A stretch of DNA of 64,000 bases from Pectinatus sottacetonis. Its GTDB lineage: Bacteria; Bacillota; Negativicutes; Selenomonadales; Selenomonadaceae. Shown here piece by piece: positions 1 through 56,308 of the stretch. The stretch lies in the NCBI RefSeq assembly GCF_015732155.1, contig NZ_WIQK01000001.1, forward strand, positions 1,560,001 through 1,624,000. Direction: 5' to 3'. The position numbers and the translations under genes are program-made. Under the pieces are notes generated by a model. The model was not told the DNA's origin. It ran no database searches and saw only the letters and a list, made by a program, of their open reading frames with translations. Within the stretch, counting starts at the first letter, position 1. Every line of letters starts with the position of its first letter.

Positions 1-68
1 CCAATATTAGACAGGCATTATCTATGTATATTTTCATTTTTACGTTATATTAAATAAAGATGAAATGT

Positions 69-1080: not shown

Positions 1081-1240
1081 TGCTGAACAGGCAGTTCTTC
1101 TGGCTCTGCTTCATTATAAATTACGCCTTCTCAAGACTCACACTATCTCAATGGACAAATGTAATTTACTCTGCATCACAGCTGCGGGACAGCTCCGGTT
1201 TTTAACGGATTCTCTATTAAGTGGATAACACCTGTTCCTT
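1081..1240 (-). promoter_or_regulatory. Cobalamin (AdoCbl) riboswitch in the leader of the dehydrogenase gene
   Basis: Read on the minus strand, the leader has the conserved cobalamin-aptamer blocks in order: an ACAGGTG box, an AATAGAGAATCC box, the CCGGAGCTGTCCCGCAGCTGTGA core, and the B12 box GCCAGAAGAACTGCC. The closing P1 stem is perfect: GAACAGG (complement of 1231-1237) pairs with CCTGTTC (complement of 1085-1091). About 60 nt separate the aptamer from the RBS of the 69-1019 gene, enough for an expression platform; a GTCG...CGAC hairpin lies in that interval. In this class ligand binding normally turns expression off, so the gene is expected to rise when B12 is low. Confidence 0.9.
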
Positions 1241-4212: not shown

Positions 4213-5583
4213 ATGAAGTTAACACCAAAGGTAGTAAAAAAAATGAAGATTAATGAATTTATTGGAAAAAAGTTTTCCTGTGAGTGTGGTCGAGAACATT
4301 ATATGGATATGAATGCAATAGTTATAGAAAATGGTGCAATAAATAAAATAATTGATGTAATAAACAAATATGGCAGTAAATATCCATTAATTATAGCTGA
4401 TTCTAATACATATAAAGTTGCGGGAGAAATGCTTGAATCGTTGCTTGATAGTGAAAATATTGCACATAAGGAAGTTATCTATCAAACGAAGTGTTCTTTG
4501 GTTCCTGATGAGGAAGCCATGGGAAAATTGATTTTAGCAGTGGGAGATAATACAGATTTGCTGATAGCAGTGGGATCTGGCGTATTAAACGATCTCACTA
4601 AATATATAAGCAGGCGTACAGGATTAAAGGCTGTTATTATTGCAACTGCACCATCGATGGATGGGTTTGTATCGGATACATCAGCGCTGACCATTGATAA
4701 TTTGAAAACAAGTGTGTCGTGTGAGCTGCCAAAAGTTGTTTTAGGTGATGTAGATATATTGAAACAAGCACCAGAACGAATGATACTTGCTGGATTAGGC
4801 GATATGATAGGAAAGTATTCGGCACTTACTGATTGGAAATTAAGTGAAATTATAAACAACGAATATTATTGTGCGACAACAGCAACAATTTCTGCTGAGG
4901 CAATTCAAAAATGTGTTGATAATATTAACGGGGTAAAAAAGCGTTCAGATGCAGCTATTGCCAATATAATGGATGGGCTGATACGTACAGGAATTGCTAT
5001 GAGCTATGTAAATAATTCTCGGCCGGCATCTGGCTGCGAACACCATTTATCGCATTATTGGGAAATGATGTTTTTATTTCAGGGAAAAGAAGCGCTTCTT
5101 CATGGAACTAAGGTAGGGATTACAAGTATATTGGCAGGAAAGATCTATGAAACTTTTGCACAAGAAAAAGTTGATTTTACAGCAGCAATAAGGAAGGCAA
5201 GGAATTTTGATGCATCCAAATGGGAAGATAATATAAAGCAATTTTATGGTAAAGCGGCAGCGGGTATATTAAAAGCAGCAGCCACAGATAACAGAAATTG
5301 TATTGAAAAGCGACTGGAACGAATAGAAACAATAAGGACAAATTTTACTGAGATTACAAAATTAGCCAAGACAGCCAAGACAGCTTCTTTTATTGAAAAT
5401 ATAATGAAATGTGCTGGGGCACCGCTTCGTCCGCAAGATGTTGGCGTTGATGAAACAACCGTTCATAATAGTATGCTTATGGCTAAGGAAGTGCGTCAGC
5501 GCTATACTATTTTAAATATGCTTTCTGATTTGGGATTGACAGAAAAATATACAGAAATTATTGATGATTTTATCAAAAAATAA
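4213..5583 (+). CDS. AraM/EgsA-like polyol-phosphate (glycerol-1-phosphate) dehydrogenase
   Basis: A 456-residue member of the sn-glycerol-1-phosphate dehydrogenase (AraM/EgsA) branch of the iron-containing alcohol dehydrogenase superfamily. The NAD-binding segment LLIAVGSGVLNDLTKY and TAPSMDGFVSDTS lie near residues 115-160. Likely metal ligands are the Asp of LGDMIGK, a His in GCEHHLSHYWE and the His of LHGTKVG. RBS AAAGGA precedes the ATG at 4213. It opens a gutM-srlA-srlE-srlB operon that lacks the usual SDR-type sorbitol-6-phosphate dehydrogenase SrlD. I infer that it may oxidise the imported polyol phosphate. Family is confident; that role is inference. Confidence 0.8.
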   Translation: MKLTPKVVKKMKINEFIGKKFSCECGREHYMDMNAIVIENGAINKIIDVINKYGSKYPLIIADSNTYKVAGEMLESLLDSENIAHKEVIYQTKCSLVPDEEAMGKLILAVGDNTDLLIAVGSGVLNDLTKYISRRTGLKAVIIATAPSMDGFVSDTSALTIDNLKTSVSCELPKVVLGDVDILKQAPERMILAGLGDMIGKYSALTDWKLSEIINNEYYCATTATISAEAIQKCVDNINGVKKRSDAAIANIMDGLIRTGIAMSYVNNSRPASGCEHHLSHYWEMMFLFQGKEALLHGTKVGITSILAGKIYETFAQEKVDFTAAIRKARNFDASKWEDNIKQFYGKAAAGILKAAATDNRNCIEKRLERIETIRTNFTEITKLAKTAKTASFIENIMKCAGAPLRPQDVGVDETTVHNSMLMAKEVRQRYTILNMLSDLGLTEKYTEIIDDFIKK

Positions 5584-5609
5584 TATAAAACAAAACAATA
5601 ATTTTATAA

Positions 5610-5698
5610 GGGACTGTGACATAAACTATTGGCTGCATAAAAATGCAGTAGTTTGCTGTTGAATGTGGATTGGAAAAACGTTTAGGTACGGCAGTCCC
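5610..5698 (+). repeat. Dispersed hairpin repeat, copy A (GGGACTGT...GCAGTCCC)
   Basis: Ends are GGGACTGTGACATAAA and TTTAGGTACGGCAGTCCC, with an internal hairpin CTGCAT-AAAA-ATGCAG. Similar ends occur at 25334-25381, 46116-46213 and 50107-50181. It separates the dehydrogenase from gutM. Confidence 0.5.
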
Positions 5699-8525: not shown

Positions 8526-9329
8526 TTATTTCAATTTTAAAATTTTGTAAATGGCTTTTGCTACACCATCATTGTTGCAATTATCTGTTGTAAAGGAAGC
8601 AGCTGATTTAGCTTCTTTTATGGCATTGCCTGTAGCAACAGAAATACCAGCATATTTTAACATGGCAAGGTCATTATCACCATCACCGAGAACCATTATT
8701 TCATCTTTCTGTATATTTAAATAGGCGGCGAGCTGTTTTATACCGATAGCTTTATTTATATTAGGCGGGGTAATGTCTATAGTATAGCCGGTATTTTGCT
8801 GAAATTTTATGGCTGATTTATATTTTTCAGCAAGGGACTGTGTTAACTCCAGTGGAATTTTTGTGCTGCTGCGGATAACTATCTGAGTGACATTTTTAGA
8901 GTAGGGTTTATAATTTGCTCCTACTTCGGTTATGTTAAAATTTTTTATAGTGCGGTAGCCGGGAAACATATCCCAGGAAAAAAATGGTGCAAACCGGTTG
9001 TTACCAATATACCAACTACAAAAAATGTTGTTTTCTATAAAAAATGCCAACAGTTCCTCAGTAACAGCATCGTCAATATATTTTTCAAATATAGGTTCAT
9101 TAGTATTAATTGTACGGATCATTGCACCATTGCATGATATTACAGGAACTTTAGTACCAATTATCCTACCAAAAAAAGAAGCGGCAAAATGCATTCTTCC
9201 TGTTGCTATTGAGGAATATATTCCCTGTCGGGAAGCAGCATGGAAAGCTTTGATGTTATTTATACTAATCGTTTTATTATCGTTTAATAAAGTGCCATCA
9301 AGGTCACTGATAATTATTTTTATTGCCAT
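8526..9329 (-). CDS. Cof-type HAD-IIB hydrolase
   Basis: A 267-residue Cof/YidA-like phosphatase. Motif I IISDLDGTLLND is at the N-terminus, a Thr-containing motif II SIATGRMHF follows, and the C-terminal motif is MVLGDGDNDLAMLKYAG near residue 215, typical of IIB HADs. These enzymes hydrolyse sugar phosphates or flavin/pyridoxal phosphates; the substrate is unknown here. I use the ATG at 9329, which has AAAGGA at 8 nt, rather than the ATG at 9338, which overlaps that RBS. Confidence 0.85.
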   Translation of the reverse strand: MAIKIIISDLDGTLLNDNKTISINNIKAFHAASRQGIYSSIATGRMHFAASFFGRIIGTKVPVISCNGAMIRTINTNEPIFEKYIDDAVTEELLAFFIENNIFCSWYIGNNRFAPFFSWDMFPGYRTIKNFNITEVGANYKPYSKNVTQIVIRSSTKIPLELTQSLAEKYKSAIKFQQNTGYTIDITPPNINKAIGIKQLAAYLNIQKDEIMVLGDGDNDLAMLKYAGISVATGNAIKEAKSAASFTTDNCNNDGVAKAIYKILKLK

Positions 9330-27240: not shown

Positions 27241-27813
27241 ATGTTACAAATATATACGGGAAATGGAAAGGGAAAAACAACAGCAGCAATAGGATTGTCA
27301 ATAAGAGCAATTGGTGCGGGAATGAATGTTTATTTTGCCCAGTTTATGAAAAGCCTTGCATATAGTGAACAGAAAATTTTGCAGAAATTACCGGGAATAA
27401 CATTAAAAACAAGTGGAAAACCATATTTTATAGCCGAAGAAGGAATGGTGGATAAGGAAAAAATAAAAAAAGAGTGGGGTGAGGATATTGTTGTATTTCC
27501 TAAAAATAATCCACCAGCAGATTACATTAAATTAGTCAGAAATGGTATAGATGAAGTAAAAAAAGCTGTTTTATCTTCTAAATATAATCTTATCATTTTG
27601 GACGAAATTAATGTGGCATTATTTTTCGGTTTAGTAAATCAGGCAGAAGTTGAACAATTACTGAATAGTATTCCCCATAATATAGAAGTAGTGTGTACAG
27701 GAAGAAATGCACCGGATTGGCTTATACAAAGAGCAGATTTGGTTACAGAAATGAAACTAGTAAAACATTACTTTGACAAGGGCATTATGGGACGAAAGGG
27801 TATTGAAGACTAA
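27241..27813 (+). CDS. cobO: Cob(I)alamin adenosyltransferase (CobO/BtuR type)
   Basis: A 190-residue P-loop enzyme that adenosylates corrinoids to make coenzyme B12. The nucleotide-binding loop YTGNGKGKTTAAIG (residues 5-18), LIILDEINVALFFGL and VVCTGRNAPDWLIQRADLVTEM are conserved CobA/BtuR segments. RBS GGGAG precedes the ATG. The enzyme would supply AdoCbl, the ligand of the riboswitch at 1081-1240. It is unlinked to cbiDET at 40-42 kb. Confidence 0.87.
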   Translation: MLQIYTGNGKGKTTAAIGLSIRAIGAGMNVYFAQFMKSLAYSEQKILQKLPGITLKTSGKPYFIAEEGMVDKEKIKKEWGEDIVVFPKNNPPADYIKLVRNGIDEVKKAVLSSKYNLIILDEINVALFFGLVNQAEVEQLLNSIPHNIEVVCTGRNAPDWLIQRADLVTEMKLVKHYFDKGIMGRKGIED

Positions 27814-55258: not shown

Positions 55259-56308
55259 CTATGCGGTTCTCTTATGAACTCCTTTATGTTTCCATAAAGC
55301 ACAGACTATATCTTGTCCTTCGGCATTATCCGTTAAGGTCTGCCCACTTCCAGCCGCTTCTAGAAGACCATTTTCTATGGGCCAGGTCGTTTTCAATATA
55401 GTGTTTTTTACTTTTAGGGTTACATCCAGATAAGAACCGCGAAAAATAATATTTTTTATGACAGCTGGTTCAATAGAATAAGGAGGTTGGCAATGGTTAT
55501 ATCTTTTTAGTATGGAAATAAATTCAGGACGGATGATAGCAGCTGTAAAATTCGGCTGATAATAAAAACCTTTAAATTGTCCATAATTTTTTACTAAGGA
55601 ATTGTTACCGATGAACTGAGCAACAAAGGGAGTTTGTGGATTTTTATAGATACTTATGGGAGGACCACTTTGTTCGATATGGCCTTTATTGACAATAAGT
55701 ATTTCGTCAGCAATTTCATTGGCTTCATCTTGATCATGTGTGATAAAGATGCTGGTAATATGTAGTTCTTTTATAGTTCTTTTTAGCCATTGGCGTAATT
55801 CCTGGCGGATTTTTATATCTATGGCGGCGAATGGCTCATCGAGCAAAAGTACTTTAGGCTCAGGGGCAATGGCACGGGCGAAAGCGACTCGCTGGCATTG
55901 TCCTCCTGATAACTGAGCCGGATAGTGGCTGGCAAAACTTTCCAAACCAATAAGTTCTAAAAGTTCTTTAACACGTGCGATTTTTTTTACGGAAGGAACA
56001 TTTTTTATTTCCATGCCGAAAGCTATATTTTCAGAAATTGTCATATAGCGGAATAAAGCATAATTTTGGAAAACAAAACCTATTTCTCTTTGGGATGGCG
56101 GAATGTCGTTGACGCACCGGCCGTCAATAAAAACACGGCCAGTGTCAGGAGTTTCAAGGCCGGCCAAAATGCGCAGTATGGTTGTTTTTCCGCTGCCGGA
56201 AGGTCCTAAGAGTGCTGATAGTGAGCCTGCGGGTAAAGAAAAATTCACATTATCGGAGATTTTACAGTTATTATATGATTTATTTATGTTGCTGAAAGTA
56301 ATATACAT
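55259..56308 (-). CDS. cysA: Sulfate/thiosulfate ABC transporter ATP-binding protein CysA, C-terminus derived from a mobile element
   Basis: A 349-residue ATPase energising sulfate import through CysT/CysW. Walker A GPSGSGKTT, signature LSGGQCQRVAFARA, Walker B VLLLDEPFAAID, H-loop ITHDQDEANEIAD, and a C-terminal TOBE-like region (IIRPEFISIL... IIFRGSYLDVTLKV). The last ~30 residues (about GSGQTLTDNAEGQDIV... to RTA) are encoded by the group I intron fragment and replace the normal end of the TOBE domain. The ATPase core is intact, so activity is plausible. Confidence 0.9.
   Translation of the reverse strand: MYITFSNINKSYNNCKISDNVNFSLPAGSLSALLGPSGSGKTTILRILAGLETPDTGRVFIDGRCVNDIPPSQREIGFVFQNYALFRYMTISENIAFGMEIKNVPSVKKIARVKELLELIGLESFASHYPAQLSGGQCQRVAFARAIAPEPKVLLLDEPFAAIDIKIRQELRQWLKRTIKELHITSIFITHDQDEANEIADEILIVNKGHIEQSGPPISIYKNPQTPFVAQFIGNNSLVKNYGQFKGFYYQPNFTAAIIRPEFISILKRYNHCQPPYSIEPAVIKNIIFRGSYLDVTLKVKNTILKTTWPIENGLLEAAGSGQTLTDNAEGQDIVCALWKHKGVHKRTA
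55272..55358 (-). repeat. Group I intron 3' core fragment (copy 2)
   Basis: Identical to 2864-2950 except one base (A at ~2901 in the first copy is G here on the sense strand). Includes the S block AAGATATAGTC and P9 hairpin CTTTATG-GAAA-CATAAAG. Its partner R strand and all upstream intron parts are absent. It is translated as the end of cysA. Confidence 0.92.

Follow-up and report, generated by a model that had tools for sequence, protein, structure and literature searches.

A predicted cobalamin riboswitch upstream of the L-lactate dehydrogenase gene in Pectinatus

Cobalamin riboswitches are typically found ahead of genes for B12 synthesis, B12 uptake, B12-dependent enzymes and B12-free isozymes. 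In the translational forms, such as the E. coli btuB and env8 types, the ribosome site is located beside or inside the regulatory hairpin. Pectinatus species, the bacteria considered here, are brewery-spoilage organisms that form propionate. In a reporter study in Bacillus subtilis, 38 of 86 cobalamin riboswitches repressed the reporter and 48 gave no response; the Veillonella parvula mutA riboswitch is among the repressing ones with dose curves (PMC9600662). A terminator was predicted for 37 of the 38 working riboswitches, and terminator-free leaders are therefore barely represented in that part of the study. For Xylanibacter ruminicola, PMC11575231 describes four riboswitches, none of them near propionate genes, and a mutase that rises with B12. 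Full-text literature searches, conducted mostly outside subscription papers, brought up no paper that describes a lactate dehydrogenase gene (ldh) under a cobalamin riboswitch. With a fermentative dehydrogenase, the class would gain a new type of target.

We analysed a stretch of 64,000 nucleotides from Pectinatus sottacetonis (contig NZ_WIQK01000001.1, positions 1,560,001 to 1,624,000 of the forward strand), referred to as the window. A cmscan search of the whole window returned a full-length match to RF00174 (Cobalamin) on the minus strand, with an E-value of 5.6e-18 and a score above the gathering threshold of 31.5 bits (Table 1). The aptamer blocks that an earlier, sequence-only reading of this DNA had placed at 1081-1240 lie inside this match. 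The perfect P1 stem of that reading was recovered as well: it consists of seven pairs, and 97.1% of its cells were paired in the leaders of five Pectinatus species. Judged by its sequence, the element before ldh is an ordinary cobalamin riboswitch on an unusual, conserved target, and we infer that it binds the ligand.

The gene that follows the aptamer had been described as a member of the lactate/malate dehydrogenase family, and its product indeed exceeded the cut-off of the equivalog model TIGR01771 (L-LDH-NAD; 353.8 bits, cut-off 303.55). The two closest PDB chains, at 491 and 488 bits with the next at 219, are both named L-lactate dehydrogenase, and we take them to be from Selenomonas ruminantium. 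The product scored below the cut-off of the LDH subfamily model NF000824 (293.1 bits, cut-off 339). A malate dehydrogenase identity was rejected on four models, all of which remained below their curated cut-offs (NF004863, 238.8 bits against 283; TIGR01763, 173.9 against 351.85; NF041314, 164 against 550; TIGR01772, 56.9 against 273.05). The broader label of lactate/2-hydroxyacid dehydrogenase can thus be narrowed by TIGR01771 to L-lactate dehydrogenase, and its open 2-hydroxyacid part is dropped. A terminator-like hairpin 3' of ldh indicates that the gene is probably monocistronic. Divergent from ldh, at 1583-2455 on the plus strand, is a gene for an ECF-type transporter ATPase (TIGR04520, above cut-off); the frames listed beside it are not obvious T or S components. 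Control of this gene by the riboswitch was rejected because the aptamer is on the opposite strand.

Table 1. Coordinates of the ldh leader and of the related loci discussed in the text (window coordinates unless a contig or another genome is named).
Feature	Coordinates	Strand	Basis or remark
20-bp terminator-like hairpin 3' of ldh, part inside the window	1-29	minus	L089 7983-8030; continues past the window start
ldh, NAD-dependent L-lactate dehydrogenase, 316 aa	69-1019	minus	ORF, TIGR01771, Pfam Ldh_1_N and Ldh_1_C
Shine-Dalgarno AGGGAGGAG, purine strand of the conserved 3' module	1029-1037	minus	9 nt before ATG
Hairpin CCUA/UAGG of the 3' module	1035-1049	minus	4 pairs, unchanged across 5 sequences
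Variable 6-bp stem-loop between aptamer and module	1053-1072	minus	alignment of 5 Pectinatus
Cobalamin riboswitch aptamer	1073-1250	minus	RF00174, 79.6 bits, model positions 1-189 of 189
P1 stem, 3' strand CCUGUUC	1085-1091	minus	aligned leaders
P1 stem, 5' strand GAACAGG	1231-1237	minus	aligned leaders
Promoter-like site TTGACA-17-AACAAT	1328-1356	minus	consensus scan, upstream of aptamer
mut riboswitch of P. sottacetonis	C1:328005-328183	minus	locus L082
Propionispira raffinosivorans riboswitch	4341-4522		L239
Propionispira raffinosivorans terminator-like hairpin	4578-4601		L239
Propionispira raffinosivorans ldh	4720-5682		L239

The two best promoter-like sites on the minus strand, at 1356-1328 and 1314-1286, match 10 of 12 consensus positions each and both lie upstream of the aptamer. 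The former has an extended -10 element, and its TTGACA is the same in all six Pectinatus ldh leaders aligned, one of which lacks an aptamer. Single matches of this kind mean little, since a 1600-base stretch contained 12 of them against 7.9 +/- 2.4 in shuffles. A promoter between aptamer and gene that bypasses the riboswitch had been named as fatal to the original proposal; the minus-strand scan listed no promoter-like site in this 53-nt gap. By these consensus matches, the aptamer occupies the 5' leader of ldh with a promoter upstream and none in between, the arrangement of a cis-acting riboswitch.

The gap contains two further elements. The variable stem-loop next to the aptamer carries changes on both sides in three of its six pairs, and 96.7% of its cells were paired in the five Pectinatus species. 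Its covariation score was 0.247, compared with at most 0.082 for slid versions; among 500 shuffles, the count of doubly changed pairs was reached in 97 and the covariation score in 25, so that covariation support is modest. The conserved 3' module forms the hairpin ACCUACGAGUGAUAGG, whose purine strand continues into the Shine-Dalgarno sequence; its 3' arm covers the first 3 nt of the latter, which is identical in all five aligned Pectinatus leaders. We propose this hairpin as the OFF-state sequestering element. Because it is invariant among the ldh leaders, they provide no covariation for it. In a CCY/RGG form, the module was present at 69 of 74 cobalamin riboswitch loci (51 from five Pectinatus and 23 from five other genomes; 5 not counted), two having U for the second C. 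Its third pair was UA in 28 cases, UG in 27, CG in 14 and CA in none, with a script whose scoring favoured CC, GG and 3' purines and not the third pair as such. At riboswitches elsewhere in the P. sottacetonis genome the module is leader sequence, whereas in the ldh leader it is the Shine-Dalgarno sequence itself.

No hairpin followed by a U-run was listed in the ldh leader of P. sottacetonis or P. brassicae, and the sole ones listed for P. frisingensis and P. haikarae fall inside the coding sequence; the ldh leader is thus not of the terminator type. The genome's 12 other cobalamin riboswitches are each followed by at least one such hairpin. That of the riboswitch at 1947889 is weak and overlaps the module, and the first one behind a tandem, degenerate riboswitch at 216429 is 149 nt away. 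The ldh riboswitch is likely to be a translational OFF switch. Separately, a general antiterminator role of the module's purine strand, in which it would pair with the terminator's 5' side, found no support among 42 riboswitches (51, less 5 degenerate and 4 ldh ones; regions were miscut for several, the mut riboswitch of P. sottacetonis included): 4 of the 42 fell within the best 10 of 200 shuffles, which is near chance, and the mean duplex energy was -5.8 compared with -5.3. An antiterminator-like stem can be fitted to the mut leaders of all five species, without compensatory change.

Taking these elements together, we lean towards the following mechanism. The ldh mRNA would start at a promoter upstream of the aptamer. 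When adenosylcobalamin or a related corrinoid is ample, the aptamer would fold and the 3' hairpin with the ldh Shine-Dalgarno sequence would be held closed, keeping LDH translation low; when B12 falls, the Shine-Dalgarno sequence would open and LDH would be made. In the open state, CACCU of the module may pair with the P1 5' strand; part of this strand forms such an alternative helix in the unconstrained minimum-energy fold of the P. sottacetonis leader, the only one of the five to do so. As to the physiological reason, a mutase stalled without B12 would presumably leave pyruvate and NADH in need of another outlet, and the logic first put forward for this locus, lactate when B12 is short, is plausible.

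The OFF direction is drawn from the riboswitch class and from the reporter study (PMC9600662). Folding as such did not discriminate direction: the mean unpaired probability of the Shine-Dalgarno sequence was 0.35-0.53 in the whole leader and 0.32-0.65 in the tail alone, with no clear difference. This would also allow an ON switch, in which B12 raises LDH. We disfavour an ON switch as very unlikely, given that the 38 riboswitches scored as functional in PMC9600662 were those that repressed, V. parvula mutA included (a count that would miss ON switches), and that the 3' module is common to riboswitches before TonB-receptor and cobalt-chelatase-like genes of the same genome.

We compared the P. 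sottacetonis genome (2.69 Mb, 13 cobalamin riboswitches) with those of P. haikarae, P. brassicae, P. cerevisiiphilus and P. frisingensis. A riboswitch lies directly upstream of ldh in four of the five genomes (P. sottacetonis, P. brassicae copy 1, P. frisingensis and P. haikarae), with scores of 79.6-100.3 bits and 51-54 nt between aptamer and ATG. P. brassicae has a second ldh copy without a riboswitch. In P. cerevisiiphilus, the Rfam match near ldh sits downstream of the gene, before another gene set. With an nhmmer model trained on 46 of the 51 Pectinatus riboswitches, an aptamer relic was detected before ldh in this species (E 7.6e-15), a relic that gave no Rfam match even at E 10; its core is deleted, and stem, module, Shine-Dalgarno sequence and start are retained. 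The nhmmer model was used in place of a regular-expression screen, which was too loose (43 of 51 known riboswitches recovered, with many matches elsewhere).

Control of ldh may be weak or dispensable, since the P. sottacetonis aptamer scores lowest and one species has lost its aptamer. Carried further, the riboswitch might be an insertion that is passive or in decay and hardly regulates the gene, a reading to which the decayed P. cerevisiiphilus aptamer, the riboswitch-free second ldh of P. brassicae and the score of the P. sottacetonis aptamer (95.4-100.3 bits in the other three intact ones) would all be suited. Such an insertion is nevertheless unlikely in view of the intact aptamers in four species, the compensatory changes in the adjoining stem, modest as they are, and an apparently independent second capture in Propionispira (see below).

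The P. sottacetonis genome contains a methylmalonyl-CoA mutase operon, mutA-mutB-meaB, in line with the B12-dependent propionate route invoked by the sequence-only reading. A separate cobalamin riboswitch lies ahead of this operon, with two terminator-like hairpins behind the riboswitch. A cobalamin riboswitch precedes mutA in all five Pectinatus genomes and, by coordinates, in two other genomes of the family, one of them an uncultured Selenomonas. Since mutAB is under its own riboswitch, ldh and mut are wired in parallel and not reciprocally. If both are OFF switches, LDH and the mutase rise together, and any toggle between lactate and propionate would come from a mutase without its cofactor and not from opposite control of the genes. 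CbiC, a marker of B12 synthesis, is encoded in the genome. The window also holds a corrinoid adenosyltransferase-like gene at 27241-27813 on the plus strand (cobA models just below cut-off), with no cobalamin riboswitch listed beside it in the window scan.

To place the ldh arrangement in the family, we examined 151 genomes and found a close LDH in 87 of them (E no higher than 1e-120). Of the ldh loci, 20 of 25 further ones taken from this search and 20 of 80 named ones were scanned with Rfam, and the nhmmer model, which was calibrated without Selenomonas riboswitches, was run on all 80 named loci and on L030-L054. Among the ldh orthologue loci examined, a cobalamin riboswitch was found at ldh in Pectinatus and Propionispira only; a few named loci cut close upstream of ldh (e.g. 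L131 and L202) are outside that count. A survey of the Negativicutes for the same arrangement had been suggested; the arrangement recurs in these two genera and is not general among the family ldh orthologues examined. In Propionispira raffinosivorans, the riboswitch, a terminator-like hairpin, ldh, mutA, mutB and meaB follow one another on one strand, with 26 bases between the longest frames of ldh and mutA and overlaps between the later ones. MutB and MeaB exceeded their model cut-offs; the MutA-like proteins of P. raffinosivorans and Pectinatus are methylmalonyl-CoA mutase homologues below the small-subunit cut-off. P. arboris has the same order of riboswitch, ldh, mutA and mutB by coordinates. 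In Propionispira, ldh thus belongs to the methylmalonyl-CoA mutase operon.

Since cobalamin riboswitches precede both ldh and mut, and a single one serves both in Propionispira, the two are not under opposite control. The main rival of our proposal is that LDH and methylmalonyl-CoA mutase are co-regulated as one lactate-to-propionate (or balance) pathway, in which the riboswitch matches the module to its cofactor and LDH is no bypass. The single riboswitch ahead of ldh-mutA-mutB-meaB in Propionispira argues for a joint pathway, as do the separate cobalamin riboswitches of mutAB and ldh in Pectinatus. However, the ldh product is an NAD-dependent LDH, an enzyme that is usually reductive in fermenters. 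Lactate could instead be oxidised by a separate two-gene pair, which we label tentatively as GlcD-like (543 bits against a cut-off of 568) and, more distantly, LdhH-like (337 bits against 800), and repression at plentiful cofactor would be hard to explain. We therefore regard joint control of the pathway as doubtful and retain repression of LDH synthesis by ample B12 as the preferred reading.

In a protein tree of 31 rows (every third row of other Selenomonadaceae included), calculated without an outgroup, the LDHs of Pectinatus and Propionispira were joined (100/98); rooted on the LDH2 paralogue, the two were not together. In an aptamer tree of 52 rows, the four Pectinatus ldh aptamers and the relic formed one clade (100/99). 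Nearest to it (93/88) was a group of six other Pectinatus aptamers; by Pfam, two of these lie ahead of TonB-receptor genes. The Propionispira ldh aptamer was placed in a group that includes two of the three other Propionispira aptamers (100/97). That the LDHs are joined but the ldh aptamers fall in different clades suggests two captures, and by these trees the riboswitch was probably acquired separately in Pectinatus and Propionispira, although the columns are few (172) and aptamer exchange inside one genome could produce the same pattern.

The genome also contains riboswitches with no obvious target gene. One of them, without a gene behind it and convergent with the acetolactate synthase gene alsS (C1:1093687-1094099; L087:688-1100, plus strand), has equivalents in the four other Pectinatus genomes. 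Behind its terminator is a block of ~110 nt that is 86-94% identical between P. sottacetonis and these four genomes, matched nothing in the 146 remaining family genomes searched, contains a CU-rich stretch and ends in a second terminator. A 1-nt indel in P. brassicae breaks its sole obvious reading frame. By its sequence, the block is a candidate B12-gated small RNA. Complements of the CU-rich stretch were not enriched in the genome (with up to 2 mismatches, 50 matches forward and 53 reverse, compared with 52 and 80 for the reversed pattern), and no target was found; the sole exact match of the stretch was its own locus. A search of plasmids with the small RNA's DNA sequence gave no match. A second orphan riboswitch (C1:1236564-1236741; L083:565-742, plus strand) is followed by a terminator-like hairpin, and in the next kilobase only frames of 67 and 65 aa lie on its strand. 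Furthermore, tandem cobalamin riboswitches at L081:8440-8621 and 8930-9104 (minus strand; the upstream one divergent, 70.4 bits) lie ahead of an OmpH-like gene and of one whose product has stretches resembling autotransporters and TonB receptors. Pairs of neighbouring riboswitches in which one is weak are likewise seen in P. cerevisiiphilus and P. frisingensis.

A wider hypothesis can tentatively be built on these loci, in which B12 would be read at the pyruvate branch point, independently in two sister genera: in Propionispira through a terminator on ldh-mutAB-meaB, and in Pectinatus through a 3' hairpin strand serving as the ldh ribosome-binding site, with the alsS-side small RNA possibly extending control in trans.

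The window further contains a group I intron at 2575-2950 on the plus strand (RF00028 core 2619-2940, 60.7 bits, cut-off 50), which the default-filter Rfam scan had missed. P. sottacetonis has 11 near-full copies among 15 matches and P. brassicae 23 matches; the other three Pectinatus genomes gave none. Ten P. sottacetonis copies had their flanks inspected: in five, a 369-aa frame that we take to be TnpB-like lies ~560 bases behind the intron start, and in one there is a 138-aa, presumably TnpA-like frame. These frames suggest that the element is probably what we take to be the IStron type. No such frame was found behind the window copy. A fragment of the same element at 55272-55358 (minus strand) matches the final 87 bases of the 376-base query at 99% identity.

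If the preferred reading of the ldh leader is true, cofactor status would set the fermentation end-product, lactate or propionate, directly at the RNA. Compared with RF00174 riboswitches in general, the ldh leader is the same in its full-length match and closed P1, and differs in its target, a fermentative L-lactate dehydrogenase in place of a gene for B12 synthesis, uptake, a B12 enzyme or a B12-free isozyme. Like the E. coli btuB and env8 types, it has its ribosome site next to or inside what would be the regulatory hairpin; the difference is that the other riboswitches of the P. sottacetonis genome have terminator-like hairpins, and that the module strand used here as Shine-Dalgarno sequence is leader elsewhere. 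The Pectinatus and Propionispira pair suggests how a terminator-type riboswitch may turn into a ribosome-site type. On the side of function, a parallel is the metE riboswitch, for example of Priestia megaterium, which represses a B12-independent alternative when B12 is present (PMC9600662). MetE shares the reaction of MetH, whereas LDH would replace at most the electron-outlet role of the mutase. In pathway, there is a likeness to the mutA riboswitches of Veillonella parvula (PMC9600662) and Propionibacterium freudenreichii (PMC5644110), which place the same class on a propionate-fermentation locus. Those riboswitches precede the B12-dependent mutase, whereas the Pectinatus target is ldh, and in Propionispira ldh is the first gene of the mutase operon.
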